Positions 19,028 through 64,000 of a stretch of DNA of 64,000 bases are shown piece after piece. Every line of letters starts with the position of its first letter. Position 1 is the first letter of the stretch. Under the pieces are notes generated by a model. The model worked only from the letters and a program-made list of their open reading frames with translations. It made no database searches and was not told the origin of the DNA. The DNA is from Limibacillus halophilus (GTDB taxonomy: Bacteria; Pseudomonadota; Alphaproteobacteria; Kiloniellales; CECT-8803). The position numbers and the translations under genes are program-made. Location: NCBI RefSeq assembly GCF_014191775.1, contig NZ_JACHXA010000006.1, positions 1 through 64,000 of the forward strand, in the 5' to 3' direction.

Positions 19028-19036
19028 GAGACACCC

Positions 19037-19393: not shown

Positions 19394-19497
19394 CCACTCC
19401 TTCGAGCGGCCTTGCGACCCTTCGGAAAGGATTGCCGCCCCCGCCTCTGACAGACACCAAACTAGCACCTGCCAATCGCCTCATCAAAGGCGCGCGA

Positions 19498-19526: not shown

Positions 19527-19631
19527 GACCCAAAGGCCGCCACTCAGAACTGCCCGAAAATGGCTGAAATCCGGGCAAAAACCACCAAAAAAGCCGACTG
19601 CGACATGACAGCCCAAGAGCCCTTTTCAAGC

Positions 19632-22600
19632 TCACGCAGTTTCGCGCAGCGCCTCTGCTGCCTCAAGATCAACGGACACAAACTGAGACACACCACGTTC
19701 GGCCATTGTGACACCAAACAGACGATCCACGCGAGCCATTGTCATACGGTGGTGGGTGACGACGAGAAAGCGCGTCTCGGTCTGCTCCGCCAACTCCGCA
19801 ACAAGGGAGCAGAATCGATCCACATTCGCATCGTCCAAAGGCGCGTCCACCTCGTCCAGAACACAGATTGGCGCCGGATTCGTGAGGAAGCAGGCGAACA
19901 ACAACGACAAAGCCGTCAAGGCCTGCTCGCCGCCGGAAAGCAGGGACATGACCTGCAAACGTTTACCCGGAGGGCTTGCCATGATCTCCAAGCCTGCTTC
20001 CAAGGGGTCATCGGCCTCCGTCAGGGCGAGATGCGCTCGCCCGCCGCCGAACAAGCGCACGAAGAGTTCCTGGAAATGCTCATTGACCTGCTCGAACGCC
20101 TTGAGGAGGCGTGCCCGACCCTCCTTGTTGAGACTTGAGATACCCTGGCGCAACCTGCCGATGGCGGCGATCAGGTCATCCCGTTCGTTCTGCATCCCCT
20201 CAATCTGCTCCTGCAGCTCGGCGGCTTCCGATTCGGCCCGCAGGTTTACCGGGCCGATGTTCTCGCGCTCCCTTTGCAAACGCTGCAGGCGACTTTCGAT
20301 CTCGTGACGGGGCGGCAACTCCTGACCTGGGTCAAATTCGGCCACTTCCAGCAGCGATTCGACACGCGCCTCCAAGCGCTCTTCAACCCGCAGTTCCAGG
20401 GTCTTTACCGTGGCCTGCGCCTGTTCGAGCAATCCTTCGGCACGAACTCGGTCTTCCCGGGCCGTTCCCAGATCGGCCTCCGCCGCCTTCACGCCGCGGT
20501 CCGCCTCGGCCTGAGCCGACTCGCCCAACGCCAACGCGTCCGCGGCCTCGCGTCGGCCCTGTTCGGCGACCTCTATCTTCTCCACCAACAGCCCGCGGCG
20601 CTCCGCCAACCCTTCCGGTCGGGTTTGCAGCCTCGCCAATTCGGCCTCGCCCTTCTGGCGACGTTCGCTCAACTCGGCCAAGTGCCGGGCCGCCGCCTCG
20701 GTCCTATCAATCCAGCCCTTGCGCTCGCTTTCGATGGATTGCAGTCGGTAGCGACGCTGCCCAGCCTCTGCCGTCAGACGGTTCAGAGTCGCCAAAGCCT
20801 CGCTTTGCCGGGCCCGGCGCTCCGCCAGGTCCGCACGCAAATCGCTCGCCCGCGCCCGCTCGGCGGCTAAATCCGGCAGCTCCTTGTGATCCGACCGAGC
20901 CATCGAGAGAGCCTGGCTGGTTTCTTCCTGCTCAGCCAGCAATCGTGCCTGCTGCTCTTCTAGGTTGGCCAGGCGAGCCGCCAGAGCCGAGGCTTGCTGA
21001 GCCAACCGATTCTCCGCCTGCCGGGCTTCGCCGACCTGCCGGAAGGCGGCGCGTTGCTCTTCCCTCAGCTCTTTCTCCTTCTCAACCACGGCTGCGACTT
21101 TCGCGCCGGCTGCCTTGAACCGCTGCTCCGCGGTCGTGACAGTCTGAAGGGCCACCTCGATCTCCCCGCGCACTTCACCAAGCCGATTGCGTTGCTGCAG
21201 GCGTTGCGCGGCCGTCGTGGGCGCACCCTGTCGCAACGTGTAGCCATCCCAGCGCCAGAGATCGCCATCGCGAGTCACCAACCGCTGGCCTGGCTGGAGT
21301 GCCGATTGAAGGCGTCGGCCGGTTGCCTTATCCGCAACCACGCCGATCTGCGACAACGCCCGGGTCAAGGCCTTTGGGCCCTTCACCCGGCCGGATAGAG
21401 GTTCGGCACCCTGCGGCAAGGCAGGCGGCCTATCCAATGGCGGCAATTCAAGCCAATGCGCGGGTGCCGCCTCGTCGCCAGAGGCGTCAAGCTCGTCGCC
21501 CAGCGCCACGCCCAGCGCCATCTCAAATCCGGCCGCGACCTTGACGGTGTGGATCAAGGGCGCCCAGATATCGCCTTCATCCGGTTCAACCAAAGCTGCC
21601 AGCGCGGCGGCCTCGGCCTCGCGCTTTTCCAGATCACGGCGCAGGGTCTCGAAAGCCTCCCGCTCCTTGGTTTCCGAAGCACGCACTTCCAGTGCTTCCA
21701 CCTCGATCCGTTCAACCATTTTCTCCAGGTCCGCAAGGCGCCGCTCCGCCGTCTCGCGTGCTTGCACCGCCGCCGCCAAGGCGCCCTCTGGCAGGGTGTC
21801 CGCAGCGACCCTTTCGCGCTGCGCCTCGGTCTCCTCGCGTTGCCGGGTTAGTCTTGCCAACCGAGTTGCCAGTTCGTCGATCCTACGCTCCAGCGCTCCC
21901 GCACGCTCGGCATCGGCGGCGATCCGCTGATTGAGCGCACCCAACTTTTCTTCCGTTTCCGCTGCCTCGACGGTGACTTTCTCCAAGTGTTCGCGGGCCG
22001 CCTTCTCTGCCTCGGCCTCGCCGGAGGAAGCGTCTTGAAGTGCTGTAACTTCCAGATCCAGGCGCTGCTGCGCCTCGGCTGCGTCCGCCGTGACAGCCTG
22101 CGCCCTCTGGGAATCCTGATCCAACTGCTCCAGACGCTCTCGCGCCGCTTGCACCGCCTCGGCCAGTTGCTGCTCCTCGCGCTGCAGGCTGTCACGCTCC
22201 AGTACCAAGCGCTGCAGTGCCGCAGCGGCTTCCGCCTCGGCCTGACGAAGCAACGGCAGCTTGGACGCGATATCGGCTTGAAGACTGCTACGGCGGGCAG
22301 CTTCCTCGGTGAGGCTTACAACACGCTCGCGAGCCGCCTCCAAGCGCTCCTCAGCCCGCCCCAGTTCCGCGGTCGCCGCCTCCGCGTCCAAATGCAGCAA
22401 CAGCGCTTCGGTGCGGCGCAACTGCTCGGCGATGTTGCGATATCGGCTGGCTTGGCGAACCTGCTTCTTCAGCCCGGCAAGCTGGGCTTCCAGAGCGCCA
22501 ATCACATCATCGAGACGCTCCAGATTGGTTTCGGCGGCGCGCAGTCGAAGCTCTGCTTCGTGACGGCGCGAATGCAACCCGGTGATCCCCGCCGCCTCTT

Positions 22601-42485: not shown

Positions 42486-45271
42486 TGTTGAACCTCGGCA
42501 TCATCGCTTTCGCGCAACCCTGGGTGCTGCTGGGATTGGGCGCATTGCCGGTGCTATGGCTGTTACTCCGTGTCACGCCGCCTGCACCCAAACGCCAGCT
42601 TTTCCCGGCGCTGCGGTTGCTTCTTGGTCTCAAGCCAACGGAGGAAACGCCGGCCCGCACGCCCTGGTGGCTGCTGGCGCTGCGCATGCTGATTGCCGCA
42701 TTGCTGGTTGTCGCCGCTGCCGAGCCGCTATTCAACCCCAGCGCGTGGCTCGCCGGGCGCGGCCCGCTGCTGCTGGTCATCGACGACGGTTGGTCCGCGG
42801 CACCGCGATGGGAGGACCGGGTCACGTCCTGGAACCAGTTGATTGAACGCGCGGAGCGGCAGCAGCGCCAAGTCATTCTGGCAACGACGGCTGAGGATAC
42901 CGGTGGCCAAACGGGCCTGATCAGCGACCAACTCAGCCCCGCGCAGGCCCGCGAACGTCTGTCGGCATTGCAGCCCAAGCCCTGGCCCGTAAACCGGCGC
43001 GCATTGCTGGAATCCCTAACCGGCCTGGCACTACAGGCGGGGACGCAGGCCTTCTGGTTGAGCGATGGATTGGCAAGCGACGGCGCCGCCGAACTGGCAA
43101 CGACGCTCCAGAGGTTGGGATCCCTGACTCTGATCAGTGACCCACCGACCGTACTCGCCAAGACCCTGTTGCCGCCCGAGCACGGCGCACAGAATTTGGG
43201 CGCCATCGTGCGCCGCAGCGTGATCGGCGCGGCGGAAACGGTTGCGGTTGAAGCCTATGCGGAAAACGGCCGACTCCTTGGACGATCGGAAGCGCTGTTC
43301 GAACCCGACGCGGGCGAGGTTAGTGTTTCCTTCGATTTGCCGATCGAACTGCGTAATGAGGCTGTGCGGCTTTCGCTGGCTTCCGCTGGCGGGCGAAGCG
43401 CAGCGGGTGTCGCGCTACTCGACGAACGTTGGCGGCGCAGGCCGGTAGGGCTATTCTCGCCTGACCGACTGGCGGCCGACAAACCTCTGTTGGGAGAGCT
43501 TTTCTTCCTCGAAAAGGCGTTGGCGCCCTTCTCCGAGTTACGGCGCGGCAGCATCGAGGAATTATTGTCGCGCGATCTCTCTATGCTGATCCTCGCCGAT
43601 AGCGGCACGCTCAGCCCGGAGGAACACGACACGCTGGTTGATTGGGTCGAAGCGGGCGGCTTGCTGGTTCGCTTCTCCGGCCCCCGGCTCCTGGATGCCG
43701 TCGCTGCAACCGGTGGCAGCCCACAAGCCCTACTGCTTCCCGTTCGGCTGCGCCCTGGGGATCGGTTGTTGACCGGTTCCCTGGCTTGGGGACAGAGCGG
43801 GACATTGGCCGATTTCCCGCCGGACAGCCCGTTCCACGGCCTGGCAGGAAGCACGGAGGTTTCCATCGGACGCCAAGTGCTTGCAGAGCCCTCGTTGGAT
43901 CTGGCCAACAAGACCTGGGCACGATTGGAAGACGGCACGCCACTGGTGACTTCCGCTCCGCAAGGCGAAGGCAGATTGGTGCTCTTCCACACCTCCGCCA
44001 ACAGTAGCTGGAGCAATCTTCCACTTTCCGGGCTGTTCGTCGATATGTTGCGACGGATCGTCGAGGTCAGCGAAGGCGTCGAAGCCTCGGCAGAAGGGAC
44101 ATCCCTGCCGCCTATTCAGTTGCTCAATGGCTTCGGCCACGTCGTTTCGCCCTGGTCGGAGGCTGGCGAACTGACCGACCCCGCGACGAAACCATCTGCT
44201 GCCACACCACCGGGGCTATACGGTTTGCAGGGGGAGCGGCGCGCCGTCAATCTTGGACCGAACCTGAGCGAGCTGGCACCCTTCGAGGTCACAGCCGCCG
44301 GCGTCATCCAAGAAACTTATCAGCGGGATCAGGAAACGAACCTGTTGACGCCCCTGTTAACGGCGGCGCTGCTCCTGGCCACTCTCGATCTTCTGATTGC
44401 GTTGCTGCTGCGCGGTCTGGTGCAAAAACCTCGATTCCTGACTGCCGCGGGCTCGACCGGCGCCGTCCTCGGATTTGCTTTGCTGGTTTCCCTGCCCTTT
44501 GGCGCCTTGGCCCAGCAAAGTATTTACGAGGGAACCCCGCAAGACCCGGAGCTCTTTGCGTTGGAAGCCTCTAACGAGACACGGCTCGCCTATGTTCTGA
44601 CGGGCGTGCCGTCTATCGACAGGGTCAGTGAAGCCGGATTGACTGGCCTGACGCTGGTGTTGCGCCAGCGCACTTCGATCACCGCGGCCGCACCCTTTGC
44701 TGTACAGCTCGGCAGGGACGAACTGGCTTTTTTCCCCCTGCTCTATTGGCCGGTTACCCGCGAGCAACGGCCGTTGGATGCCACGGCCAGACAGGCCGTT
44801 GCCGACTACATGCGCAACGGCGGCACCATCGTCTTCGATTTGCAGGAGGAACGGGTTGGGCGCGGATTGGGCGGTCTGCTGACACCCGGCGAAGCGGCAC
44901 TTCGGGCCATAACCGCCGGTCTGGACCTGCCGCCACTTGCCCCGATAGACCCCGACCACGTGCTAACCAAAGCCTTCTATCTGTTGCAGGATTTTCCGGG
45001 ACGCTTGCAGGGTGGCCTGCCCTGGGTCGAAAACGTCGGCGAAGAGCAGAACGACGGCGTTGCCTCACTCATCATCACAAGCGGCGATTGGGCGGGCGCT
45101 TGGGCCATCGATGACCGCGGCGCCCCGATCCTTCCGGTTACACCCGGGGGCGAGCGCCAACGCGAGATGGCCTATCGGGTCGGCGTCAATTTGGTGATGT
45201 ATGCGCTGACCGGGAACTACAAGGCCGATCAGGTTCATGTCCCCTTCATTCTGGAAAGGCTGGGACAGTGA
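42485..45271 (+). CDS. DUF4159 membrane protein with BatA-like N terminus
   Basis: A 928-residue protein. Residues 1-85 hold two membrane helices of the BatA/Aerotolerance-regulator N-terminal type (AQPWVLLGLGALPVLWLLLRV, LRMLIAALLVVAAAEPLF). A large central domain of about 500 residues follows, then helices near 620-670. The C-terminal DUF4159 domain (about 685-925) contains FFPLLYWPVT, VADYMRNGGTIVFDLQ and VGVNLVMYALTGNYKADQVH. DUF4159 is related to glutamine-amidotransferase-like folds and its function is unknown. Start and stop codons overlap those of both neighbours. Confidence 0.88.
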   Translation: MLNLGIIAFAQPWVLLGLGALPVLWLLLRVTPPAPKRQLFPALRLLLGLKPTEETPARTPWWLLALRMLIAALLVVAAAEPLFNPSAWLAGRGPLLLVIDDGWSAAPRWEDRVTSWNQLIERAERQQRQVILATTAEDTGGQTGLISDQLSPAQARERLSALQPKPWPVNRRALLESLTGLALQAGTQAFWLSDGLASDGAAELATTLQRLGSLTLISDPPTVLAKTLLPPEHGAQNLGAIVRRSVIGAAETVAVEAYAENGRLLGRSEALFEPDAGEVSVSFDLPIELRNEAVRLSLASAGGRSAAGVALLDERWRRRPVGLFSPDRLAADKPLLGELFFLEKALAPFSELRRGSIEELLSRDLSMLILADSGTLSPEEHDTLVDWVEAGGLLVRFSGPRLLDAVAATGGSPQALLLPVRLRPGDRLLTGSLAWGQSGTLADFPPDSPFHGLAGSTEVSIGRQVLAEPSLDLANKTWARLEDGTPLVTSAPQGEGRLVLFHTSANSSWSNLPLSGLFVDMLRRIVEVSEGVEASAEGTSLPPIQLLNGFGHVVSPWSEAGELTDPATKPSAATPPGLYGLQGERRAVNLGPNLSELAPFEVTAAGVIQETYQRDQETNLLTPLLTAALLLATLDLLIALLLRGLVQKPRFLTAAGSTGAVLGFALLVSLPFGALAQQSIYEGTPQDPELFALEASNETRLAYVLTGVPSIDRVSEAGLTGLTLVLRQRTSITAAAPFAVQLGRDELAFFPLLYWPVTREQRPLDATARQAVADYMRNGGTIVFDLQEERVGRGLGGLLTPGEAALRAITAGLDLPPLAPIDPDHVLTKAFYLLQDFPGRLQGGLPWVENVGEEQNDGVASLIITSGDWAGAWAIDDRGAPILPVTPGGERQREMAYRVGVNLVMYALTGNYKADQVHVPFILERLGQ

Positions 45272-47373
45272 TGAGCGACGCTCTCAGCCTTTCTTTCTCG
45301 CCGTTGCTGCCATGGCCCTGGCTTTTGATCTTGGGCGCGCTATCGCTCGGCGTCACGGCGCTCTGCCTCTTACGCCAGGTGCGCGGCAGCCTGCCCCGCA
45401 CCCTGTTCGCGCTGCTGTTGCTGATTGCTTTGGCGAACCCCTCGCTGATCGCCGAGCAACGCGAGGGGCTTCCCAACGTTGTCCTGATGATTCTGGATGA
45501 AACGCCAAGCCAGCAGGTCGCGCCCCGGCCCGATCAGTTGCAGGAAGCCGAGGCCTATTTGCAGGCGCAGTTCGATACCTTGCCAAACCTGGAGGTCCGA
45601 ACCCTTCGGCTGGAAAGCGACCTTGGTCAGGACAATGACGGAACGCGTCTCGCCCCGGCTTTGCGGCGGGCGTTGGGTGAAGTGCCGCAGGGCCAACTGG
45701 CAGGCGTATTCCTGGTGAGCGACGGACGTATCCATGACGTGGATGCAGTGCAGGGCCTGCTGGGTGAGGAAGCGCCTCTGCAGGTGCTGCTCACCGGACA
45801 GCGCGGCGAAGGCGACCGGCGCATCACGATCACCCAAGCCCCTGCTTACAGCCTGGTGGACCAGGAGCAGAAGATCACCCTCAGGGTAGATGATCTTTCG
45901 GGGGACGAGGCCGGGCAAACAGCGGCCATGCCCCCCGGCGGACAAGCGCTTGTTCACCTGCGTCAGGCAGGAATGCCACCCCGGAGTTTCCTAGTGCCTT
46001 TGGGCAAGGAGTCGGATGTCTCCTTCACCTTGGACCGGCGTGGCCGCAGCATTTTGGAAATCGAGGTGGACCCTGGGCCTGACGAGCTTTCCCTCATCAA
46101 CAATCGAGCGGCGGTGGAAGTACAGGGGGTTCGCGAAAGACTGCGGGTGCTGCTGGTGTCGGGCGAACCGCATGCCGGTGAGCGCGCTTGGCGAAACCTG
46201 CTGAAGTCCGACCCTTCAATTGATCTCGTCCACTTCACAATTCTAAGACCCCCGGAAAAACAGGACGGAACGCCGATCCGCGAACTTTCGCTGATCGCCT
46301 TCCCGACTCGCGAACTCTTCGAGGTCAAGCTGAAGGAGTTCGACCTGATCATTTTCGACCGCTACCAGAGACGCGGCGTGTTGCCGCAACTCTATCTGGC
46401 CAATGTCGCCCAGTACGTAGAGGAAGGCGGCGCGCTGCTGGAGGCTGTTGGACCGGCTTTCGCCACGCCTTTGTCGCTCTACCGTACGCCGCTGGGCGCG
46501 GTCCTTCCGGGCGAACCGAGCGGGCGCATTCTCCAGCAACGCTTCACCCCGCGCCTGACCGCTACGGGCTTGCGCCATCCCGTGACCACCGGGCTACCGG
46601 GCGTGGCGTCGGCCCAGGAGGTTCCTACCTGGGGCGACTGGTTGCGACAGATCGATTTGGATAGCCGCCGGGGCGAGGTGGTGATGAGCGGAATCGAACA
46701 GAAACCCTTATTGATCCTGGATCGTGTTGGCAGCGGCCGCGTCGCCCAGCTTGCCAGCGATCACATTTGGCTTTGGGCACGCGGCTACGACGGCGGAGGA
46801 CCGCAGCGTGAGTTAACGCGGCGGATTGCTCACTGGCTGATGAAGGAGCCGGAGCTGGAAGAGGAAGACCTGCGCGCCAAAATCGAGGGCGCAACCCTAT
46901 CTATCGAGCGCCGCTCCCTGACCGTGGCGGCGCGCAGGATTCAAGTCGTCGCGCCGGACGGCACAGAGACATCCTTGGTTATCGAGCCCGACGAAAAAGG
47001 CGCGATGCAGGTCGAACTACCTGTCAGTCAGCCTGGTCTCTACAGAGTCAACGACGGCGATCTTCAGGTCCTGGCGACCGCTGGCCCCTTGAACCCGCTG
47101 GAATACAGGGACTTGCGCCGTGATCAAAGGACCCTGGCGCCCTTGATAGCGGCGACGGGGGGACGCGAGACAACGCTCGACCAAGCGGATTGGCCGAACG
47201 TGCGTATGGTTTCCCCGGGCCGCGACCGCAGCGGTCGCGACTGGCTAGGCATCGTTGACCGGGCAGCCTTCCGGGTTACGGGAATTGACCGCACCCCCCT
47301 GCTGCCCGGCCTCTTGTTATTGCTATTGAGTATCAGCGCCCTTGCCTGGGCTTGGCAGCGTGAGGGACGTTGA
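45271..47373 (+). CDS. Membrane protein of the MoxR operon (amidotransferase-like fold)
   Basis: A 700-residue protein with two N-terminal membrane helices (LLILGALSLGVTALCLL, LFALLLLIALANPSLI), a large extracytoplasmic region, and a final helix (LLPGLLLLLLSISALAWAW). The middle part shows VLLVSGEPHAGERAWRNLLKSD, FDLIIFDRYQRRGVLP, and YVEEGGALLEAVGP. These suggest a class I amidotransferase-like fold, but the catalytic Cys is not evident, so it is probably non-enzymatic. It is the last gene of the unit, and its ATG overlaps the preceding stop as TGATG. It overlaps the convergent GNAT gene by 41 bp. Confidence 0.82.
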   Translation: MSDALSLSFSPLLPWPWLLILGALSLGVTALCLLRQVRGSLPRTLFALLLLIALANPSLIAEQREGLPNVVLMILDETPSQQVAPRPDQLQEAEAYLQAQFDTLPNLEVRTLRLESDLGQDNDGTRLAPALRRALGEVPQGQLAGVFLVSDGRIHDVDAVQGLLGEEAPLQVLLTGQRGEGDRRITITQAPAYSLVDQEQKITLRVDDLSGDEAGQTAAMPPGGQALVHLRQAGMPPRSFLVPLGKESDVSFTLDRRGRSILEIEVDPGPDELSLINNRAAVEVQGVRERLRVLLVSGEPHAGERAWRNLLKSDPSIDLVHFTILRPPEKQDGTPIRELSLIAFPTRELFEVKLKEFDLIIFDRYQRRGVLPQLYLANVAQYVEEGGALLEAVGPAFATPLSLYRTPLGAVLPGEPSGRILQQRFTPRLTATGLRHPVTTGLPGVASAQEVPTWGDWLRQIDLDSRRGEVVMSGIEQKPLLILDRVGSGRVAQLASDHIWLWARGYDGGGPQRELTRRIAHWLMKEPELEEEDLRAKIEGATLSIERRSLTVAARRIQVVAPDGTETSLVIEPDEKGAMQVELPVSQPGLYRVNDGDLQVLATAGPLNPLEYRDLRRDQRTLAPLIAATGGRETTLDQADWPNVRMVSPGRDRSGRDWLGIVDRAAFRVTGIDRTPLLPGLLLLLLSISALAWAWQREGR

Positions 47374-47887
47374 GCCGGGCCGAGGCATCGACCGCTGGCG
47401 CGATCAGACCCGAGACACCCTTCAAAGCGCCCTGGCGCAATTCAAAGACCTGGAAGCGATCCGGCTCGACCGGACCCGGGAGCCGCAACTTTCGGGCCCC
47501 GGCGTTCTCGAATCCATAGGGGCCGTAATATTCAGGCGCGCCCACAACCAAGCAAAGCCGATGGCGCTGGCGTTTGGCGGCGGCCAGACTATGCCGCACC
47601 AATGCCCGGCCAATTCCCCGGCCTTGCAAGGACGGCTCAACGGCGAGTGGCCCGAGAAGAATTGCCGGCGTTGCCGCCTTGCCGATCACAATCGGCCAAT
47701 AGCGGATCGATCCCAGCAATTGCTTATCAGGATCAACCGCCACAAACGACAGCGCCACAACCGGCTCATAACCGTCGCGCAACCGGTAAACGGTTTTGGA
47801 TTTACGCTCGGGCCCAAAGGTCCGTTCCAGAAGAATATCAATCCGGCCCGCATCCTGCGGCCGTTCGGCAATGATTTCAAAACTCAT
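47333..47887 (-). CDS. GNAT N-acetyltransferase
   Basis: A 184-residue acetyltransferase. The acetyl-CoA loop is VEPSLQGRGIGRALVRHSL, and VVGAPEYYGPYGFENAG is typical of the 'predicted N-acetyltransferase YhbS' group. The substrate is unknown. I chose the ATG at 47887 because the 56 codons upstream are polar and do not match the family. An ATG at 47980 is an alternative. The 283 bp to the next gene (47888-48170) holds no convincing feature. Confidence 0.82.
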   Translation of the reverse strand: MSFEIIAERPQDAGRIDILLERTFGPERKSKTVYRLRDGYEPVVALSFVAVDPDKQLLGSIRYWPIVIGKAATPAILLGPLAVEPSLQGRGIGRALVRHSLAAAKRQRHRLCLVVGAPEYYGPYGFENAGARKLRLPGPVEPDRFQVFELRQGALKGVSGLIAPAVDASARLNVPHAAKPRQGR

Positions 47888-48170
47888 AGCATTAGAACTC
47901 CAGCGTGACTCTTGACGATTCGTCGGCGTCGTTCCGCTTTGCGGCGGTCGGTCACTGTCTTGCTGTCTGGTGTTCGTCATCTCCGCTTTCTTGGGAGTGA
48001 CCCGGCTTGGATGTATTCCGGCGCATTCGACGAGCAGACGCACCGCCACCCGCAAAGGGAGGCGTCAGGATCGTCGTCGTAGTCGTTGCCGAGTCAGCAT
48101 GGATCATGCCTCTGATAATCTTGATGGTTTTCTCCTACCACAAGCTTAGGATCGCCGCCAACACGTAACT

Positions 48171-49091
48171 TCACCGAACGGCGCCGCGACGAAGCTGCGA
48201 GAAGGCATCGATACCGCCAGCCGTTGCCACCAGCACGCAGCCGATCAACTCGCGAAAACCAAAGGGTTCGTCCGTCAGGATCGCAGCGGACACCGTTGCA
48301 AAAATCACCTCCGTCATCATCAACAGCATGGCGCGCCCCGGCTCGAGTTTTTTGGTTGCCCAGAACACAACGATTGCCGCCGGTATGAACCAAATCACCG
48401 CGCTGATCGCCGCCACGCCCATCGCGGCGGTGATCTGGCGGCCGGTCGGCGTTGCCCCCAATTCGGGGTCGAGCAACAAAAACAGCGCAAGCAGCGTCGC
48501 CACGACGTAAGCGACCCCGCTTTGCGACGGACCGCCAATCCCCGGCGTCATCCGGGAGAACAAGGCGGCAAGAGCAAAAGCGATTCCGGCGAAAAGGCCG
48601 AACCAGTCGCCGGTTTGCTGCGGCAAGGGCAACCCGTCCTGCAACCCCAACACAACCGCCGCGCCAAGGAGACCACAGAAAATTGCGAGTATGCGTAGCG
48701 GCCCGACACGGTCTTTCAGGAAAAGGCGTCCCAGGATGCTGGCCCACACCGGTGATAGGTAAAAGAGCAGAATCACGCGAACAACCTCGCCGGTTAGGAT
48801 CGCCGCACCCCACAGCATCAACGCCGCACCAAAGAAGAAAGCGGAAGCCCAGGCCAGCCGGGCTTCCCAGGTGAAGGGGAGCGGACGCAGCCAAAACGCA
48901 GGCAGCATGAAGACCGCCGCTGCGCCGTAGAGCAGGATATTCACCCAACCCGGCGCCAAGTCGTACTCCGCTATCCATCGGATCGGCAGCCAGGAGGTTC
49001 CCCAAAGAAGCGCCGCGAACAAAAGGGCCCCCGGCGCCATCCAGGAGGAAGCCTGACGGCCGTCGCCAGTCGGGTGCTTGCCTGCGGTCAT
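48171..49091 (-). CDS. EamA/DMT-family transporter
   Basis: A 306-residue membrane protein with about ten helices arranged as two EamA repeats. LLFAALLWGTSWLPIRW opens the first repeat. FLSPVWASILGRLFLKDRV and EPFGFRELIGCVLVATAGG are the usual repeat ends. The substrate is not known, though family members export amino acids or metabolites. The start at 49091 follows the lysR stop by ten bases, so the two are probably cotranscribed and the regulator may control this exporter. Confidence 0.88.
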   Translation of the reverse strand: MTAGKHPTGDGRQASSWMAPGALLFAALLWGTSWLPIRWIAEYDLAPGWVNILLYGAAAVFMLPAFWLRPLPFTWEARLAWASAFFFGAALMLWGAAILTGEVVRVILLFYLSPVWASILGRLFLKDRVGPLRILAIFCGLLGAAVVLGLQDGLPLPQQTGDWFGLFAGIAFALAALFSRMTPGIGGPSQSGVAYVVATLLALFLLLDPELGATPTGRQITAAMGVAAISAVIWFIPAAIVVFWATKKLEPGRAMLLMMTEVIFATVSAAILTDEPFGFRELIGCVLVATAGGIDAFSQLRRGAVR

Positions 49092-49101
49092 ACCTGCTCC
49101 A

Positions 49102-50025
49102 TCATGGCAATCCTTCTTCCCAAAAGGGCCTGCCACCAAACCGCGCGGCGAGGAAATCAATAAATACCCGGACCTTCGGAGAGAGGTTGCGGGCTGCTGG
49201 ATACACCGCATGAACAGCCGTGTCGGCTTCATCCTGCCAGTCGCAGAGGATTGGAAGCAAGCGCCCCTGGCGCAGAGCGGTTCCCGCCATGAAGCTGGGC
49301 AGCAGTCCAATACCCAACCCGGCTTCGCAGGCCTGCAACAACGCTTCGCCGTGATTCGCCCGAAGACGGCCTGAAACCGTTACCTGCCGCCGCTCGCCCT
49401 TTGCGTTCCGAAACTTCCAGCGCTCGCCGGAGGCCTGGTACCTATATAGCAAGCAATGATGATCCCGCAGGTCGCGCGGATCCTCCGGCAAGGTCCTGCG
49501 CCGGAGGTAATCGGGACTGGCGCAGAGATATCGACGACTGGGCGCCAGGCGGCGCGACACGAGACTGGAGTCGTCCAATTCGCCGATCCGGATTGCCAGG
49601 TCGATCGCGGACTCTACCAAGTTTATCATCTGATCGTTCAACGTGAGATCGATGGAGATTTCCGGATAGCGATGCATGAACGCAGGCAAGAGCGGTGCAA
49701 TCTGGCGCGCGCCAAAAGAAGCCGGAACGTCCAGGCGCAGCAGGCCGCGCGGCGCTTCGGCCAAGGGTCTCAGGGTCGCCTCAGCCTGCTCGGCCTCGTC
49801 CAGTATGGTCCGACAACGCGCATAAAGCGCCTCTCCCGCTTCCGTCATCGAAAGACGGCGCGTGCTACGGTTGAGCAGGCGGAGCCCCAAGGCATTCTCC
49901 AGGGACGCAACGCGTTTTGAAACCACAGCCTTGGATTGGTCAAGCGCGCGGGCCGCACCGGTGAAACTGCCTTCGTCGACGACAGCGGCAAAAACTGCCA
50001 TTTCAGTCAGGCGATCGAGATTCAT
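49102..50025 (-). CDS. LysR-family transcriptional regulator
   Basis: A 307-residue regulator. The N-terminal winged helix-turn-helix is AVFAAVVDEGSFTGAARALDQSKAVVSKRVASLE (given here in family form), and the C-terminal effector domain starts near residue 88. The closest style is the AaeR/CrgA-like subgroup. I chose the ATG at 50025 with AGGTGA five bases upstream. It is divergent from wrbA and lies upstream of the EamA gene; an inverted repeat covers its leader. It may respond to a quinone or electrophile, but this is an inference from context. Confidence 0.92.
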   Translation of the reverse strand: MNLDRLTEMAVFAAVVDEGSFTGAARALDQSKAVVSKRVASLENALGLRLLNRSTRRLSMTEAGEALYARCRTILDEAEQAEATLRPLAEAPRGLLRLDVPASFGARQIAPLLPAFMHRYPEISIDLTLNDQMINLVESAIDLAIRIGELDDSSLVSRRLAPSRRYLCASPDYLRRRTLPEDPRDLRDHHCLLYRYQASGERWKFRNAKGERRQVTVSGRLRANHGEALLQACEAGLGIGLLPSFMAGTALRQGRLLPILCDWQDEADTAVHAVYPAARNLSPKVRVFIDFLAARFGGRPFWEEGLP

Positions 50026-50047
50026 ATTGTTCACCTATAGAAACAAT
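50026..50047. promoter_or_regulatory. Inverted repeat between lysR and wrbA
   Basis: ATTGTT (50026-50031) and AACAAT (50042-50047) are perfect arms separated by ten bases, and include a T-N11-A pattern typical of LysR boxes. The repeat begins at the base next to the lysR start codon and covers its ribosome-binding site, so autoregulation is plausible. The remaining gap to wrbA is AT-rich around 50048-50080. Confidence 0.45.
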
Positions 50048-50157
50048 TATGTTCGATTTTAACCACTAATACATTAATAGCCAAGCCCCCATCTGTGATC
50101 GTGAAGGCGGTTACCACACCGTCACTATCCTTGGATTACACTGAAAGGAAGCCGATC

Positions 50158-50760
50158 ATGACGAAGGTTCTGGTTCTCTATTATTCCTCTTACGGCCACA
50201 TCGAGACGATGGCGGACGCCATCGCGACAGGTGCGCGGGGCGTGGCCGACACCGAAGTGACGATCAAACGTGTGCCCGAGCTTGTTCCGGCGAACATTGC
50301 CGCCCAGTCCGGAATGAAAGTCGAGCAGGACGCGGAGATCGCAAAGCCGCATGAGCTGGCGGATTATGACGCGATCATCTTCGGGACACCGACGCGCTTC
50401 GGCAATATGGCCTCGCAGATGCGAAACTTCCTCGACCAGACCGGCGGCCTTTGGGCCAAAGGCGCTTTAGTGGGCAAAGTCGGAAGCGCATTCGCGTCGA
50501 CGGCCACCCAGCACGGCGGCCAGGAGACGACCTTGACATCATTCCATACGACTCTGTTCCATCACGGCATGGTGGTTGTGGGTGTGCCCTACTCAGTTCC
50601 GGAGTTAGGAAACATGACGGAAATTTCCGGTGGTACGCCTTACGGTGCGACGACGCTTGCAGGCGGCGATGGATCACGCCAGCCGTCGGAAAACGAACTT
50701 GCCATCGCCCGGGCTCAGGGTCGCCATGTGGCCGAGATCGCCAAGAAGCTGGCTGCCTGA
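50158..50760 (+). CDS. wrbA: NAD(P)H:quinone oxidoreductase WrbA
   Basis: A 200-residue flavodoxin-like FMN protein. The FMN loop is [15 protein letters not shown] and the second is [36 protein letters not shown] and the [11 protein letters not shown] insert are typical of WrbA. It makes two-electron quinone reductions and so avoids semiquinone radicals. I chose the ATG at 50158 behind AAAGGAAG. It is followed by pirin at 38 bp, forming a stress-type pair opposite lysR. Confidence 0.95.
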
Positions 50761-50798
50761 AGGCAACAGCTCAAAGAGCAGAAGAGGAGTCCCTAACA

Positions 50799-51503
50799 AT
50801 GTTAGACCTACGATCTTTCGACACCCTGGGACGTTTCCGGAATGACTGGTTGAACGCTCGGCATCATTTCAGTTTCGGCAGTTATTATGATCCGAAGCGG
50901 AGCGGACTTGGCGCATTGCTGGTCTGGAACGATGACACCATCGCCCCCGGCACCGGCTTTGATCTACACGGCCATCGGGACATGGAGATCATCACCTATG
51001 TCCGCAAAGGTGCCATCACCCACCGCGACCATCTCGGAAACACGGGACGGACAGAGGCGGGTGATGTCCAGGTCATGTCGGCAGGCAAGGGAATCCAGCA
51101 TGCCGAGTTCAATCTGGAGGATGAGGAAACAGAACTGTTTCAGATCTGGATCATGCCCAATCAGCAAGGGGTTGAGCCACGTTGGGAACAGCGCCAATTT
51201 CCCAAATCCAGTCGATCTGCCGGCCTGGTAGCCCTGGCCTCCGGACGTAACGGGGACGAAGACGCCCTACGGATACACCAGGACGCGGCGGTCCTAGCGG
51301 CCAGCTTGGGCAACGGGCAAACGGTTCGTCACCAACTTACGGCCGGCCGCGTTGCTTATCTTGTCCCCTCTACCGGGCGCCTGACCGTTAATGGAAAGCC
51401 GGTGGAGACGCGCGATGGCCTGGCCGTACGCGGACCGGAGACTCTCGAGATCACTGCCGTAGACGACAGCGAAGTGGTTCTCGTCGACGCGCCGGAGGTT
51501 TGA
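50799..51503 (+). CDS. Pirin family bicupin protein
   Basis: A 234-residue bicupin. The metal-binding residues are His57 and His59 (GFDLHGHRDMEI), His101 (GIQHAEFN) and Glu103. YDPKRSGLGALLVWNDD is the usual N-terminal text. Members such as YhhW are quercetinase-like iron proteins; the cellular role is uncertain. I chose the ATG at 50799, with GAGGAG about nine bases upstream. The upstream in-frame extension overlaps wrbA and should be ignored. Confidence 0.93.
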   Translation: MLDLRSFDTLGRFRNDWLNARHHFSFGSYYDPKRSGLGALLVWNDDTIAPGTGFDLHGHRDMEIITYVRKGAITHRDHLGNTGRTEAGDVQVMSAGKGIQHAEFNLEDEETELFQIWIMPNQQGVEPRWEQRQFPKSSRSAGLVALASGRNGDEDALRIHQDAAVLAASLGNGQTVRHQLTAGRVAYLVPSTGRLTVNGKPVETRDGLAVRGPETLEITAVDDSEVVLVDAPEV

Positions 51504-51603
51504 TGGCGTCTTGAACGGAACGATCCATGGAAGCACCAAGGGGGGCTCGCGCAGCGACGCCTGGGCGGTTATCCTCTTGGTGTGATCCAATGGAAAGGAC
51601 TTC

Positions 51604-54042
51604 ATGGTGCGCGCGGCCAGACTGCTTCCCACCCTCGCGGTTTTCATCCTCCTGCTAACGCTGGCGATTCAACCAAGCCATGCACAGCAACTCAACGACA
51701 TACGTCAGACCCTGGCCGACCGGAGCGGTTCGCTAAACGAAATCGATGACGATCTCGCAAAGCAGCCCCTTACAGACAAGCTCGCTGGGCAGATTCGAGA
51801 CCAGGTGGAACGGACGCTTGATGACCTGAACGGCGTCAAAGACGACATCCGCCGTTTGCTGGCACCCGTGCGCACGCAATTGGCGGCAATGGGACCCGCA
51901 CCCGAGGAAGGACAACCGGCGGAAACGGGACAGGTCGCACGTGAACGCGATCGGCTGAATGAAAGAGCTGCGGAGTTGGAGGGGTTGCTACGCCAAGGCG
52001 ATACGATACAGGCGCGCGCGGAAGTCGTGCTACGGCAACTCTCACTCGAACGCAGCGCCACGGTTGCGGCGGAACTCTTGCAGCGCGGTCCCTCGCCTCT
52101 TTCATTGGAGGTCTGGCGCAAGGGCCTGCAGGAAGCATCCGCCATCGCGTCGGAGCTAGCCCATCGGCCAGTCCTCTGGTGGCAGGCTGCGCGACCGGCA
52201 GTTGTCGGCTGGAAGCCTTACTTGACCGTATTGTTGGCTTTGATCATTACCTTGGCCTTGGGCGCGTTGATACGCCACCGGCTCAAGGCTCGCTACGGTC
52301 AGCGCTCGGATATTGAAACGCCCAGCTATCCAAGGGCCGTCATGGCCGCGGCGATCGTGGGGCTGACAGACAGTCTGATCCCCGCCGCCAGCGCCTATGT
52401 TCTGCTCTTGCTGTTGCACCAGACCGGTTTGGTTCCCGACGAATCGGCGCCGCTGGCGCGCGGTATCGCCATGGCAATTATCTTTTACAGTATCGTGGGT
52501 CAGTGCGCGCGTGCCGTATTGGCGCCGCAGAAGCCGCAATGGGCGATTGTGCCGTTGGACGCAGACCGGGCCCGAAAGGCCGGATTCCACACGAAGCTAC
52601 TCGTGGCATGGTTGTCGCTGGGAACGGCAATCTGGATCGCAACCGAGCCGTTTCGGCCGGCATCGGCGGAAGTCTCCATGCTCTTCGCATTACTGGGCAA
52701 CGGAATCACGGCGTTCTTCCTGCTTCCTTTCCTGGGAAATTGGCTCTGGAAGCAAGAGAAGCCATCTGAGAGCGGTGAAGGAGAAAATCCCGGTACCAGC
52801 CATCTGCCCTTACTGCGCCTTTTCATAATTCTGGCTGTTGCCGCTATCCCGCTATCCGCCCTGTTTGGCTATGCCAACCTTTCCTATCAGATCGCCAGCG
52901 GGGTGGTTCTGACGGCAATACTGATTGGCGGACTGCTTTTGGCACGCACAATGTCCAATGCCTTCGTCAACGCGATTTTTGCCCCGGCAGGAAAGGGCGG
53001 CTGGATATCAAATCAGCTGGAGATCACGGAAAACGGCAGCCAATCGATCGGCTTCTGGTTCGGGTTGCTGATCGATTTCGGGCTGCTTCTCCTAGGTTTG
53101 CCGCTGCTGCTGCTCGTCTGGGGCGTACCCGAGACGGTCATCGCTTACGGCGCTGCGGAGTTTATGCAGGGATTCACCGTGGGCGGTATGACCTTCCAAC
53201 CCGTTTCACTTTTCTGGGCGGTGGTGATCTTTGCTTTGGCGCTCATCGCTTTCCGGTTCCTGCGGAAACTTCTTAATCAACGCGTACTGTCGCGCACCCG
53301 GTTGGATGTTGGCGCCCGCCACTCGATATCCGCGGCTCTAGGTTATGTTGGCTTCTTCATCGCCTTGATGCTGGCCGTTGCCACCATGGGGCTTGACCTG
53401 TCGAACATAGCGATCATTGCCGGTGCCCTGTCGGTCGGCATAGGCTTTGGTTTACAAAACGTGGTGAACAATTTCGTCTCCGGGCTTTTGCTGTTGATTG
53501 AGCGGCCCATCAAGGTCGGGGATTGGATTGTCGTCGGTGGCTACGAGGGTACAGTAAAGCGCATCTCGGTTCGCTCCACGGAGTTGGAAACGTTCGACCG
53601 TGCGGAAGTCATCGTTCCAAACTCGGAGCTGGTATCCGCGCCCGTGGTCAACTGGACCCACAAAACCCGGATCGTGCGCGTGACGATCCCGGTCGGCGTC
53701 GCCTATGGTTCCGACACCCGGCTTGTTGAAAAGCTGCTTCTGGATTGCGCCAAAGACCACCCGGATGTGCTCAGCTATCCAGCGCCGTTCGTCGTTTTCA
53801 TGGCCTTCGGGGATTCGTCGCTCGATTTCCAGCTACGCGTTTACGCCCGTGACACCAATTACTTCATTACAGTCACCAGCGACCTGCACTTTGCCATCGA
53901 TAAGGCCTTCCGCGAAAACAACGTGGAGATTCCCTTCCCGCAGCGTGATCTGCATGTGAAGAATCCAGAAAGGGTCGTAGAAGTCCTTCGTAACGGCAGC
54001 AAGAAACAAAGCGAGATTCCGCCACAAGGCAGCGACGACTGA
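51604..54042 (+). CDS. Large MscS-family mechanosensitive channel with DUF3772
   Basis: An 812-residue membrane protein. A signal peptide (residues 1-27, ending SHAQQ) leads into a periplasmic DUF3772 domain rich in coiled coil (about 30-165). Some nine or ten membrane helices follow. The MscS core near residues 575-780 has the pore helix IIAGALSVGIGFGLQNVVNNFVSGLLLL, then ERPIKVGDWIVVGGYEGTVKRI. The cytoplasmic end has VPNSELVSAPVVNWT. It is a member of the KefA/MscK-like large MscS group that opens on hypo-osmotic shock. It lies 100 bp past pirin and is probably separate. Confidence 0.93.
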   Translation: MVRAARLLPTLAVFILLLTLAIQPSHAQQLNDIRQTLADRSGSLNEIDDDLAKQPLTDKLAGQIRDQVERTLDDLNGVKDDIRRLLAPVRTQLAAMGPAPEEGQPAETGQVARERDRLNERAAELEGLLRQGDTIQARAEVVLRQLSLERSATVAAELLQRGPSPLSLEVWRKGLQEASAIASELAHRPVLWWQAARPAVVGWKPYLTVLLALIITLALGALIRHRLKARYGQRSDIETPSYPRAVMAAAIVGLTDSLIPAASAYVLLLLLHQTGLVPDESAPLARGIAMAIIFYSIVGQCARAVLAPQKPQWAIVPLDADRARKAGFHTKLLVAWLSLGTAIWIATEPFRPASAEVSMLFALLGNGITAFFLLPFLGNWLWKQEKPSESGEGENPGTSHLPLLRLFIILAVAAIPLSALFGYANLSYQIASGVVLTAILIGGLLLARTMSNAFVNAIFAPAGKGGWISNQLEITENGSQSIGFWFGLLIDFGLLLLGLPLLLLVWGVPETVIAYGAAEFMQGFTVGGMTFQPVSLFWAVVIFALALIAFRFLRKLLNQRVLSRTRLDVGARHSISAALGYVGFFIALMLAVATMGLDLSNIAIIAGALSVGIGFGLQNVVNNFVSGLLLLIERPIKVGDWIVVGGYEGTVKRISVRSTELETFDRAEVIVPNSELVSAPVVNWTHKTRIVRVTIPVGVAYGSDTRLVEKLLLDCAKDHPDVLSYPAPFVVFMAFGDSSLDFQLRVYARDTNYFITVTSDLHFAIDKAFRENNVEIPFPQRDLHVKNPERVVEVLRNGSKKQSEIPPQGSDD

Positions 54043-54061
54043 CCAATTCGTTGTAATGCCG

Positions 54062-54439
54062 TCAGAGGTGAGGTGCGATCTTTGCGTCGTAAACACCCAG
54101 GTTCTCGCTCGCCTTCGGGCCGTCGCACCCTTCCGCCTTGACGGTCTTCTTCGATTCCTGCTTAGCCGCATCGATCAACGAAAGCTGTTTGCCGATGGCG
54201 ACCTTGTTACCGGTTTGGGCGGAAATGATCGCCGTAACCTTTTCGTTCAGCCCCTCATCTTCCAGCTTGCGACAGTTTCTCGTGATATCGAAAGCGCGGT
54301 AAAGGTCCTGAAACATTGCCTCGGCCTGGTCTTGGGTCATGGATTGCACTTGATCGGCATCGCTGGTCTGCGCACTGGCCGCCAAGGGCCAAGTCGTCAT
54401 GAACGTCATCATCAGCAGGCCCCGGATTATAAATTTCAC
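54062..54439 (-). CDS. Small exported protein of unknown function
   Basis: A 125-residue protein with a signal peptide (FIIRGLLMMTFMTTWPLAASAQ) and mature start at about residue 24. The mature part is helical and carries two cysteines (NCRK and EGCDG), likely joined as a disulfide. The start is GTG with AAGGAG six bases upstream, a strong signal. I do not recognise a family. It is convergent with the MscS gene and lies 12 bp downstream of the DUF924 gene on the same strand. Confidence 0.72.
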   Translation of the reverse strand: MKFIIRGLLMMTFMTTWPLAASAQTSDADQVQSMTQDQAEAMFQDLYRAFDITRNCRKLEDEGLNEKVTAIISAQTGNKVAIGKQLSLIDAAKQESKKTVKAEGCDGPKASENLGVYDAKIAPHL

Positions 54440-54451
54440 GGTCCACTCCTT

Positions 54452-55000
54452 TTAAAACGACGCATGGGGATCATTCGCCAGGAAATCCATTTCTTCGGTC
54501 GTCGTGATTCGTCCTAGCGCTTCGTTACGGTGCGGAAATCTCCCAAACCGCTCAATGATAACCTTATGCCAGACAGCGTATTGCAGCCAGTCGGGGTTTT
54601 CATCCAAGGCCGCGATCAGGGCACAGGAACGTTCTTGCGCCCCAAGTGTCTCACTATGTTCGAAAGGCAGATATAGAAAGAGCCGTTCTTTTTGCCGCAA
54701 CCCGCGGTCGAATCCTCTATCAACTGCCTCTTCAGCGACCTCCAAGGCCGACGCGTCGCCAGCAAATGCCTGAGCCGTGCCACGATGAAGGTTGCGTGGC
54801 ACCTGGTCCAGCAACAACACCAGGGCCAGGGCACCGCGCGGGCTGCCACGCCAACCGTCCAGCGCTCCCGCGAACGCCAGCCTCGACAAATCGCCAAGCC
54901 GTAGCGCGACACGATCATCGAACTGCTTGTCGCCTGCAAACCAGAAAGGCTCATTCTCGGGGGAGAACCAGAAATCAAGGACATGTTCGATCCGGCTCAT
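54452..55000 (-). CDS. DUF924 family protein
   Basis: A 182-residue helical protein. VLDFWFSPENEPFWF at the N terminus, LVLLLDQVPRNLHRGTAQAF and FLYLPFEHSE are the characteristic segments of DUF924. The family has a TPR-like helical fold and no known biochemical role. It probably shares a transcript with the small exported protein that follows. Confidence 0.92.
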   Translation of the reverse strand: MSRIEHVLDFWFSPENEPFWFAGDKQFDDRVALRLGDLSRLAFAGALDGWRGSPRGALALVLLLDQVPRNLHRGTAQAFAGDASALEVAEEAVDRGFDRGLRQKERLFLYLPFEHSETLGAQERSCALIAALDENPDWLQYAVWHKVIIERFGRFPHRNEALGRITTTEEMDFLANDPHASF

Positions 55001-55098
55001 GCCTAATCCTTGAAGGTCCCGTGAGCGAACGTCGCGTAGAATTTACGCGTCGCGGCTCTATAGTACTGGGATTTGACGCTTGCCAATCTTACAAAAAA

Positions 55099-61889: not shown

Positions 61890-61928
61890 ATCTACCAAAC
61901 CAACCAATACTAGTGCCTTTCCAGAAAA

Positions 61929-61948
61929 TGGCTGGGGCGGCAGGATTC
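61929..61948 (-). other. tRNA 3'-end fragment, probable attachment site (attL)
   Basis: Read on the minus strand this is GAATCCTGCCGCCCCAGCCA, the last 20 bases of a tRNA: T-stem 3' side, acceptor 3' strand CGCCCCA, discriminator G, then CCA. The acceptor and discriminator fit a tRNA-Gln (5' end would be TGGGGCG). The sequence diverges at once toward the tRNA body, so it is not a gene. Together with the recombinase at 62059 it looks like the displaced 3' end left when an element integrated into a tRNA gene. Confidence 0.65.
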
Positions 61949-62058
61949 TCAGCCATGAAAATGAATCCCCTTACGTGCCAATAACTTATTGATCTTTATG
62001 ATCATTTCAATGAGAAAGTGTTACGACGAACTGTCACTTACTCTAGCTACGAGAGATC

Positions 62059-63747
62059 ATGTCACTAGCCACAAATTTAGTACGACGTGGGTCGGTCTAC
62101 TATGTCCGGGTCACGGTGCCGGCAGACCTTCAGGAAATATTTGGGAAAAGGGAGATCGCACGATCTCTGCACACCAAGGACCCCATGGAGGCTCGCAAAC
62201 GTTCGTTCTCGGTGTTGGATGAAATCTATCAGAATTTTGAAGCGGCGCGACAGCGTCGCTGCCCAAGCGATGAGGCCATAAAAAAGGCGGTCTGGTCTTT
62301 CTTTAAAAGGGAACTGGTGATCGACGAGATTGAACGACAGCAAAACCGGGGAAGCGAGAGTCTGCTCGAGAGAAACAAATTGTTTCGAGACCCGGAAATG
62401 GCAGCTTTGAGAAAGCACCTTGCAGAAGGAGAGACGGCATTAGTCGAATGGGCGGCGGACGAAATTATCAAAAGGAATAAGTTTCTAATCTCGAAAGAAA
62501 GTCGAGGCTATGAGCAGCTCTGCCATCTGATTGCAAAAGCGAAAATTGAAGCACTTCGGTTAGCGAAAGAGCGAGATCAAGGTATTTTCGAAGGGTCGCC
62601 GAACCCTGAGATGGTTGCGCAGCCATCAAAGGAAGAAACAGGCCAATCAGCGCCTCCGGGCCGATCGCTTGCAAACCTGTTTGAGCTTTATGCACGAGAG
62701 AAGGCTGAAACGATCAAGGCCGACACTCTCGATCAAAACCGCAAAGCCGTTGCCCTATTTTTTGAATTCGTCGGCAGGAGCTCCGGAGCAGACACTCTAA
62801 CGCGCAAGAACGTAGCCGCCTGGAAAGACGCTTTGAACGCCTGGCCAAGAAAGGCAGCAGAAATCACTGAACTGAAGGGTCTCGACTTTCGAGCAACGAT
62901 CGAGGTCAATCGTGCCCTCGGGCGGCCGACGATCTCACAGAGGACGATCAACAAGTATCTCACGGCCTTGAGTGGTTTTTGCCGGTGGCTTCGGTATAGG
63001 GGTGACATCAACGATAACCCTGTAGAGGGAAACCTCACTTCACTCAGAAGAGATCGGCAGGAAATTGCGCCCTATTCATCCGAGCAACTGAAAACCATCT
63101 TCAATTCCCCTCTTTTCACCGGTTGTCTTTCGGATGCCAAAGAGCATGAAAGTGGCAACCATCTAGTGCTTGATCACCGCTTCTGGCTCCCGTTGCTATC
63201 ACTCTTTTCCGGTGCTCGTCTGGGCGAACTTTGCCAACTGCTCGTGGAGGATGTCCGGGAAGAAAGCGGAACCTGGATCATTCATATCACCACCGATGGA
63301 GACGAAGCGAAGCGGCTCAAGACGAAGAACGCCTATCGGGTCGTACCTCTCCATTCCGAACTTATCCGTTTAGGGTTCTTGCGGCATGTCTCCACTCAAA
63401 ATAAGCGAAGCGCGAGGCGGCTCTTCCCGGAGATTAAACCCGATGCCCGCGGCTTCCTCTCAGGCTTCCCCAGTCGATGGTATGGCCGTTATACGAAGCG
63501 AATAGGCGTAAAGGAGGACAAATCTCTCAATTTTCACTCCTACCGTCATTCGTTCATCGATGCACTTCGGAGAGCAGGCTACTTCAAGGAGGCCTACCAA
63601 CCGCTGATCGGCCATGCCGGAGCAACCGTAACCGACCGCTATGGACGCCTGCCCGACGGTACTCTTGCTAAACGCCTCGAGATGGTAGAAGCCGTCTCCT
63701 ATCCTGATCTTGACCTTTCACACCTTTATGATTCCGAAAATGTATAG
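62059..63747 (+). CDS. Tyrosine-type site-specific recombinase (integrase)
   Basis: A 562-residue phage-type integrase. An N-terminal DUF6538-like region (LVRRGSVYYVRVTVPADLQ) is followed by a helical stretch, a SAM-like core-binding domain (about 215-330), and the catalytic domain. The catalytic residues are Arg387 (GARLGEL), His493 and Arg496 (HSYRHSF), His519 (IGHAG), and the nucleophile Tyr528 (DRYG); a Lys in RLKTKNAYR completes the set. It starts 110 bp right of the tRNA-like fragment and reads away from it. It belongs to the element that should extend past the window. Confidence 0.93.
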   Translation: MSLATNLVRRGSVYYVRVTVPADLQEIFGKREIARSLHTKDPMEARKRSFSVLDEIYQNFEAARQRRCPSDEAIKKAVWSFFKRELVIDEIERQQNRGSESLLERNKLFRDPEMAALRKHLAEGETALVEWAADEIIKRNKFLISKESRGYEQLCHLIAKAKIEALRLAKERDQGIFEGSPNPEMVAQPSKEETGQSAPPGRSLANLFELYAREKAETIKADTLDQNRKAVALFFEFVGRSSGADTLTRKNVAAWKDALNAWPRKAAEITELKGLDFRATIEVNRALGRPTISQRTINKYLTALSGFCRWLRYRGDINDNPVEGNLTSLRRDRQEIAPYSSEQLKTIFNSPLFTGCLSDAKEHESGNHLVLDHRFWLPLLSLFSGARLGELCQLLVEDVREESGTWIIHITTDGDEAKRLKTKNAYRVVPLHSELIRLGFLRHVSTQNKRSARRLFPEIKPDARGFLSGFPSRWYGRYTKRIGVKEDKSLNFHSYRHSFIDALRRAGYFKEAYQPLIGHAGATVTDRYGRLPDGTLAKRLEMVEAVSYPDLDLSHLYDSENV

Positions 63748-63842
63748 ATGGGCACTGCTTGGCAAGTTGGCCTCGATCTCACGTACGGGCGGCAAATTGC
63801 TTGCACATCGGGCGCCCCATAAATCATCTGCGACGAGAGATC

Positions 63843-63968
63843 ATGAGTAAATTGAACCGAGGTCTTGGTCGGAAAATCGATCGCGTACTTTATCTTGAAT
63901 CCATCAAACGATCAGGCTTGCCCGCCGCACCTCATCTCCATGGAATGCTGGAGATAGCCCCTGAATAA
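63843..63968 (+). CDS. Small hypothetical protein after the integrase
   Basis: A 41-residue frame beginning MSKLNRGLGRKIDRVLYLES, basic at its N terminus. The 13 bp ACGAGAGATCATG at its start (63833-63845) is the same as at the integrase start (62049-62061), which supports translation from this ATG. No similarity is recognised. If real it belongs to the integrated element. The last 32 bp of the window hold nothing recognisable. Confidence 0.35.
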   Translation: MSKLNRGLGRKIDRVLYLESIKRSGLPAAPHLHGMLEIAPE

Positions 63969-64000
63969 TCATCAGCGGTACATAGTATATTGCTGCCTGG

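Follow-up and report, generated by a model that had tools for sequence, protein, structure and literature searches.

The right end of the window, a 64,000-nucleotide stretch of the Limibacillus halophilus genome, in all likelihood (probability of about 0.93) contains the start of a genomic island of ~33.5 kb, which would have been inserted by tyrosine recombinase-mediated site-specific integration at the 3′ end of the tRNA-Gln(TTG) gene adjacent to ispE. Two 26-bp repeats, an intact tRNA gene at the right end, a displaced tRNA fragment at the left end, the catalytic residues of the integrase, relatives free of the element, and the gene content are directly observed. Excision, mobility, restriction activity, and the catabolic substrate are predictions from sequence. 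The integrase gene is located at the fragment end of the element rather than beside the intact tRNA gene, and this reversed layout recurs in a clade of alphaproteobacterial integrases.

The window corresponds to bases 1 to 64000 of contig C6 (223,715 bp), and contig and window coordinates are equal. The minus strand of positions 61929 to 61948 reads GAATCCTGCCGCCCCAGCCA, the exact 3′ end of a tRNA-Gln, CCA included. No tRNA body follows this fragment, as stated in an earlier note on this DNA, nor is one present elsewhere in the window. The 20-mer occurs at a single site in the window, even with up to 3 mismatches (chance expectation of 0.04), and exactly twice in the whole genome (3.48-Mb assembly, 18 contigs), both times on the minus strand, at C6:61929-61948 and C6:95423-95442. 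The second copy is the terminus of an intact tRNA-Gln(TTG) gene identified by ARAGORN (Table 1). The direct repeat extends over 26 bp (AGAAAATGGCTGGGGCGGCAGGATTC), of which 20 bp belong to the tRNA and 6 bp lie outside it; searching C6:60001-98000 for its 17-bp core with up to 3 mismatches did not reveal a third copy, such as a tandem array of elements would contain internally. The displaced fragment has the same orientation as the intact tRNA gene, at the opposite end of an element that measures ~33.5 kb from repeat to repeat.

The earlier note had proposed that the 20 bp were the displaced 3′ end of a tRNA gene, that the intact gene lay to the right of the window with most of the cargo, and that a search for a second copy on that side would put this to the test. 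The search returned a copy on the same strand, 33.5 kb to the right, as the 3′ terminus of an intact tRNA-Gln(TTG) gene. Since the second copy terminates an intact tRNA gene and synteny agrees (see below), the fragment is the displaced 3′ end, and the window holds the left boundary of an element that reaches C6:95416/95442. A chance resemblance of 20 to 26 bp to a tRNA end, involving no integration, would draw on the shortness of the repeat and on nothing else. This explanation, the probability of which is practically nil, is refuted by the exact 26-bp match, the restriction of the 20-mer to two copies in 3.48 Mb, their proper orientation, the presence of an integrase gene at a distance of 110 bp, and a break of synteny at the expected place.

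Table 1. Features of the element and of its chromosomal flank, in coordinates of the window and of contig C6
Feature	Position	Strand	Remark
Chromosomal left-flank genes, outside the element	45115..55042		Homologues follow ispE-tRNA-Gln in order in element-free relatives
Left attachment site: 26-bp repeat holding the displaced 3′-terminal 20 bp of tRNA-Gln	61923..61948	-	Second copy at C6:95417-95442
Element, in-window part	61949..64000		Extends to C6:95416/95442
Tyrosine recombinase (integrase), 562 aa	62059..63747	+	DUF6538 N-terminal arm and Phage_integrase catalytic domain
YeiH-like exporter	C6:64820-65818	-	
Enoyl-CoA hydratase (ECH)	C6:65906-66820	-	
CoA-transferase III	C6:66678-67886	-	
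Rieske oxygenase	C6:67883-69091	-	
VanB-like reductase	C6:69049-70026	-	
DctP, TRAP solute-binding protein	C6:70297-71412	-	
LysR regulator	C6:71624-72568	+	Divergent
DctM	C6:72593-73975	-	
DctQ	C6:73966-74634	-	
GIY-YIG protein	C6:75900-76304	+	
HsdM	C6:77003-78718	+	
HsdS	C6:78715-79983	+	
ORF of no known family	C6:79980-80810	+	
ORF of no known family	C6:80807-81640	+	
GmrSD_N/AlbA_2 protein, 711 aa	C6:81694-83829 (L004:1694-3826)	+	PADLOC HEC-05
HsdR	C6:83831-87079	+	
About seven ORFs of no known family	C6:87313-94986		
Intact tRNA-Gln	C6:95423-95497	-	

The arrangement TPR gene, ispE, tRNA-Gln is conserved across the taxonomic order of the host. We read the DNA downstream of the ispE-linked tRNA-Gln gene in 26 relatives, none of them congeneric, a comparison that bears on gene-level collinearity only. 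In element-free relatives, homologues of the window genes located at 45 to 55 kb follow the tRNA gene in the same order, at distances of 4 to 20 kb in L052, L051, L054, L044, L045, L027, L029, and L049, among others. In L052, for example, the homologue of 54455-55042 is found at 8.5 to 9.1 kb from the tRNA gene and that of 45115-47370 at 17.7 to 19.9 kb; in L049, the former is found at 4.3 kb. In L. halophilus, the same genes are ~40 kb from the tRNA gene, with the 33.5-kb element in between. The comparison with genomes lacking the insert, which the earlier note had advocated, thus agrees with an insertion at the level of gene order in these other genera. In the closest relative compared, from the same family (G001), the contig stops 0.66 kb beyond the tRNA gene. 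Approximately 7 kb of additional, nonconserved DNA separates the element from the conserved left flank, indicating that this side was already variable. The same tRNA-Gln gene is a reused target, since a different, unrelated integrase gene is located directly behind it in G015 (L030). In G022 (L053), a second exact tRNA-Gln 3′ end is present 1 kb behind the intact gene (positions 180-199 and 1234-1253); it is probably a scar left when another element integrated at this site.

The recombinase gene starts 110 bp to the right of the fragment, as the earlier note had indicated. The protein comprises a DUF6538 domain (residues 6 to 65) and a Phage_integrase domain (residues 381 to 530). Because the catalytic residues are all present (R387, K421/K423, H493, R496, H519, and Y528, the presumed nucleophile), the integrase looks active. 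No excisionase was recognized in the element. The integrase gene is located just inside the displaced-fragment end, and the intact tRNA gene is found 31.7 kb beyond its 3′ end. The window's element does not show the usual layout, in which the intact tRNA gene directly precedes the integrase gene and the latter reads away from it.

Searches of genome and viral contigs with single integrase sequences returned no relatives, but a four-row alignment did retrieve some. The sample comprised 73 loci obtained with this four-member alignment, two plasmid loci, and G154. With a threshold of at most 2 mismatches to a reference 17-mer, an inverted tRNA 3′ end was detected upstream of the integrase gene in 47 loci, including the window, which belong to an alphaproteobacterial clade and represent many genera. 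The layout is reversed in all (47/47) of the clade integrases that retain the 5′ flank. The integrase gene starts 126 to 202 bp from the inverted tRNA end, which in nearly all loci is located 124 to 165 bp ahead of the start codon. In the control, 20-base shuffles of the same upstream stretches rarely reached 5 to 6 mismatches. Of 41 genomes searched, 30 contain a second, same-strand copy 7.5 to 30 kb away, always 3′ of the integrase gene. All but one of these distal copies (29/30) end an intact tRNA gene, for tRNA-Gln (TTG or CTG) in 26 cases and for tRNA-Pro in 3 cases; the remaining copy is truncated where its contig stops. The same layout is present in G154 (tRNA-Gln TTG, 15.7 kb) and in Sinorhizobium meliloti pSymB (tRNA-Gln CTG, 18.4 kb). 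Both ends were verified in 32 elements, including that of the window (29 Gln and 3 Pro). The clade relatives are mostly 16 to 30 kb long. The nearest relative, from Magnetospirillum moscoviense (50% identity), has lost the 5′ end of the integrase gene together with the fragment, and a tRNA-Gln gene is still present on the 3′ side.

Five loci (L104, L106, L109, L118, and L119) have a fragment other than that of tRNA-Gln, TGGTCGGAGCGAGAGGA or TGGTCGGGGAGACAGGA. In L109, L118, and L119, an intact tRNA-Pro gene forms the far copy, indicating that the target was switched and the reversed polarity kept. Paracoccus versutus pTAV4 (L063/L075) carries a clade integrase gene with an inverted tRNA-Gln end. 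No second tRNA-Gln end was found on this 1.74-Mb replicon, where the element may occupy a secondary site or may have lost the tRNA end, unless the latter is located on another replicon.

Distant relatives of the integrase display the usual layout, with a gene for tRNA-Glu, -Gln, -Lys, -Arg, -Ala, -Ser, -Met, -Tyr, -Leu, -Thr, or others shortly before the integrase gene, which reads away from the intact tRNA gene. This opposite arrangement, together with the unrelated integrase that occupies the same tRNA-Gln gene in G015, could suggest that the fragment and the integrase gene of the window originate from different elements and that their proximity is an accident of decay. The occurrence of the same layout in 47 clade members from many genera, with a matching intact tRNA gene verified at the far end in 32, largely refutes this explanation, which we hold to be very improbable.

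Only 2 changes of layout are required on a maximum-likelihood tree built from 78 integrases. L120, which has the usual layout, branches with weak support near the base of the reversed group. Deep relations in the tree are unsure because the quick tree contains many long branches. A tree constrained to unite the reversed rows and L079 had a likelihood above that of the free quick tree (+40.65; p-AU of 0.865). Thus, the reversed layout may have arisen only once, a scenario that this comparison does not reject.

We propose that the attP site of the circular island would contain a copy of the tRNA 3′ end ~130 bp before the integrase start codon and pointing in the opposite direction. Upon recombination with the chromosomal tRNA-Gln gene, the island's copy would complete the tRNA, and the original last 20 bp of the host tRNA gene would be pushed to the left end, beside the integrase gene. 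Host DNA and this displaced fragment would then lie upstream of the integrase gene. Because attP would point opposite to the integrase gene, the latter would be located at the fragment end, and transcription of the tRNA gene would enter the island at its other end. Extending this scheme to the clade, we tentatively suggest, with somewhat less than even confidence, that a large alphaproteobacterial group of DUF6538 integrases inherits a reversed polarity of the attachment site, with attP ~130 bp before the integrase gene and the 3′ end of tRNA-Gln, rarely tRNA-Pro, inverted, such that the displaced fragment always marks the integrase end of the element and the intact tRNA gene the far end. These integrases would serve satellite-like elements carrying head genes as well as defense and catabolic islands, and the polarity, which would keep integrase expression apart from tRNA read-through, would be a previously unrecognized heritable trait of the integrase.

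According to the description of Islander (Hudson, Lau, and Williams; PMC4383910), tRNA islands of 2 to 200 kb contain a tyrosine integrase gene and are bounded on one side by an intact tRNA gene and on the opposite side by a displaced 3′ fragment of like orientation. The filters described therein ignore the position of the integrase gene and would let such elements pass; polarity is not discussed (PMC4383910). The window's element shares the intact tRNA gene, the displaced fragment, the internal tyrosine integrase gene, and the length but differs by the location of the integrase gene at the fragment end; it is otherwise an ordinary cargo island, a member of a well-known kind. A search of open-access texts with a few phrases returned no description of an integrase gene at the tRNA-distal end, which is weak evidence of novelty. 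To the extent of this narrow search, the clade-wide reversed layout is undescribed, and specialists may know single cases. For members of this DUF6538 clade, the island is to be sought downstream of the integrase gene, over up to 30 kb, with the intact tRNA gene at the far end. Expecting the intact tRNA gene beside the integrase gene would lead to misreading the fragment as the insertion site or to searching the wrong side. Integrases that are related yet oppositely arranged at one kind of target also offer a clean comparative system for studying the evolution of the orientation of the attachment site relative to the integrase gene and for asking whether this orientation affects integrase expression.

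The island's identity, ends, and cargo can now be read (Table 1), answering the question of the cargo that the earlier note had left open. The best solved relative of the Rieske oxygenase is dicamba O-demethylase, and those of DctP are ketoacid-binding proteins. The cassette encoding the reductase, Rieske oxygenase, CoA-transferase, and ECH is also present on a conjugative plasmid of Paraburkholderia graminis (L196), next to a gene for S-(hydroxymethyl)glutathione dehydrogenase, and on a Bradyrhizobium conjugative plasmid (L197), where an MFS transporter replaces the TRAP transporter. This cassette is a mobile catabolic module, with transporters that differ between plasmids. The Rieske protein was detected in 4 of the 385 sampled alphaproteobacterial genomes, counting that of the window (E ≤ 1e-80), a rarity in keeping with accessory cargo. 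Because a gene for a formaldehyde-detoxifying dehydrogenase adjoins the plasmid cassette, oxidative demethylation is suggested as the reaction performed by the oxygenase/reductase pair, as a lead rather than a result. The TRAP transporter would import an organic acid, which the pair would oxidize, probably by demethylation, before CoA activation and hydration. An organosulfonate substrate, considered on the basis of the YeiH-like exporter and the TRAP transporter, found no support in a literature search and was dropped in favor of demethylation.

HsdM, HsdS, and HsdR are all present and near full length, as is usual for type I restriction-modification (R-M) systems. The putative system differs by three extra genes between hsdS and hsdR, one of them encoding the GmrSD_N and AlbA_2 domains and the two others belonging to no known family. 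The locus, with its GmrSD-like nuclease gene, would defend the cell against incoming DNA. Any benefit of the cargo to the cell is predicted from protein domains only. The seven or so ORFs at 87 to 95 kb gave no match to Pfam, NCBIfam, PHROGs, or PADLOC where scanned, save one sub-threshold NCBIfam match, and comparison of two of them with solved structures gave no convincing match. One ORF of 281 codons (C6:~88832-89677) is very AT-rich (GC of 0.41, 0.28, and 0.30 at the three codon positions), unlike the rest of the element, and matches no family.

Relaxase and type IV secretion genes, the hallmarks of integrative conjugative elements, were not detected by Pfam among the scanned ORFs of the element, about seven of which have no match in any library. 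Genes for phage heads or packaging, expected in a prophage or capsid-forming satellite, were likewise not detected by Pfam, nor by PHROGs in the ten ORFs scanned, and tblastn searches of the window's element with the portal, capsid, and terminase proteins of clade relatives gave no match. Because no transfer or packaging genes were recognized, movement between cells would need a helper.

The GC content of the element is mostly ~0.51 to 0.55, reaching 0.59 to 0.61 at 77 to 80 kb (hsdM and hsdS) and falling to 0.37 at 89 to 90 kb. This unevenness, the predominant length of 16 to 30 kb in the clade, and the occurrence of the catabolic cassette by itself on plasmids would fit a composite island, in which a shorter, integrase-bearing element first entered the tRNA-Gln gene and subsequently gained the catabolic cluster, the R-M locus, and the AT-rich gene by other routes, the 33.5 kb never having moved as one unit. 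Against this history, which we consider unlikely but by no means negligible, the element contains neither a third tRNA-end fragment nor, among the scanned ORFs, a second integrase or transposase domain, and clade members of 24 to 30 kb with diverse cargo exist.

The cargo of other clade members was surveyed in 48 loci (the 47 reversed loci and L079). Portal, capsid, or terminase homologues were found downstream of the integrase gene in 26 of these loci versus none of 26 loci with the usual layout. The 18-kb element of Sinirhodobacter populi (L081) contains genes for an integrase, a portal, a protease-capsid, the small and large terminase subunits, and one minor tail protein, and is similar to a capsid-forming satellite or to the head-module remnant of a prophage. 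The 26 clade loci share with capsid-forming phage-inducible chromosomal islands (cfPICIs) and such remnants a short length and portal, protease-capsid, and terminase genes directly after the integrase gene, a likeness of gene content alone, whereas the window's element lacks head genes. Sinorhizobium meliloti USDA1021 pSymB is reported to carry a phage-related sequence, USDA1021-013 (PMC11476347), which, judging from strain and replicon, is probably the pSymB element found here (L064). Its integrase is 36% identical to that of the window (tblastn). As in the window's element, a tRNA-Gln fragment is located upstream of the integrase gene (135 bp) and the intact tRNA gene on its 3′ side, but phage portal, capsid, and terminase genes follow the integrase gene in L064. 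Elements of ~18 kb in which tRNA-Gln repeats enclose integrase, portal, protease-capsid, and terminase genes (L081 and 25 other clade loci; L199) could possibly form a family of alphaproteobacterial capsid-forming satellites. Other clade members carry defense-like cargo: in L095, genes for a sigma-70-like protein, an HSP90-like ATPase, Z1, and AIPR are located behind the integrase gene (12360-21526). Z1 is also present in L096 and L102, and hsd homologues are present in L087 and L108.
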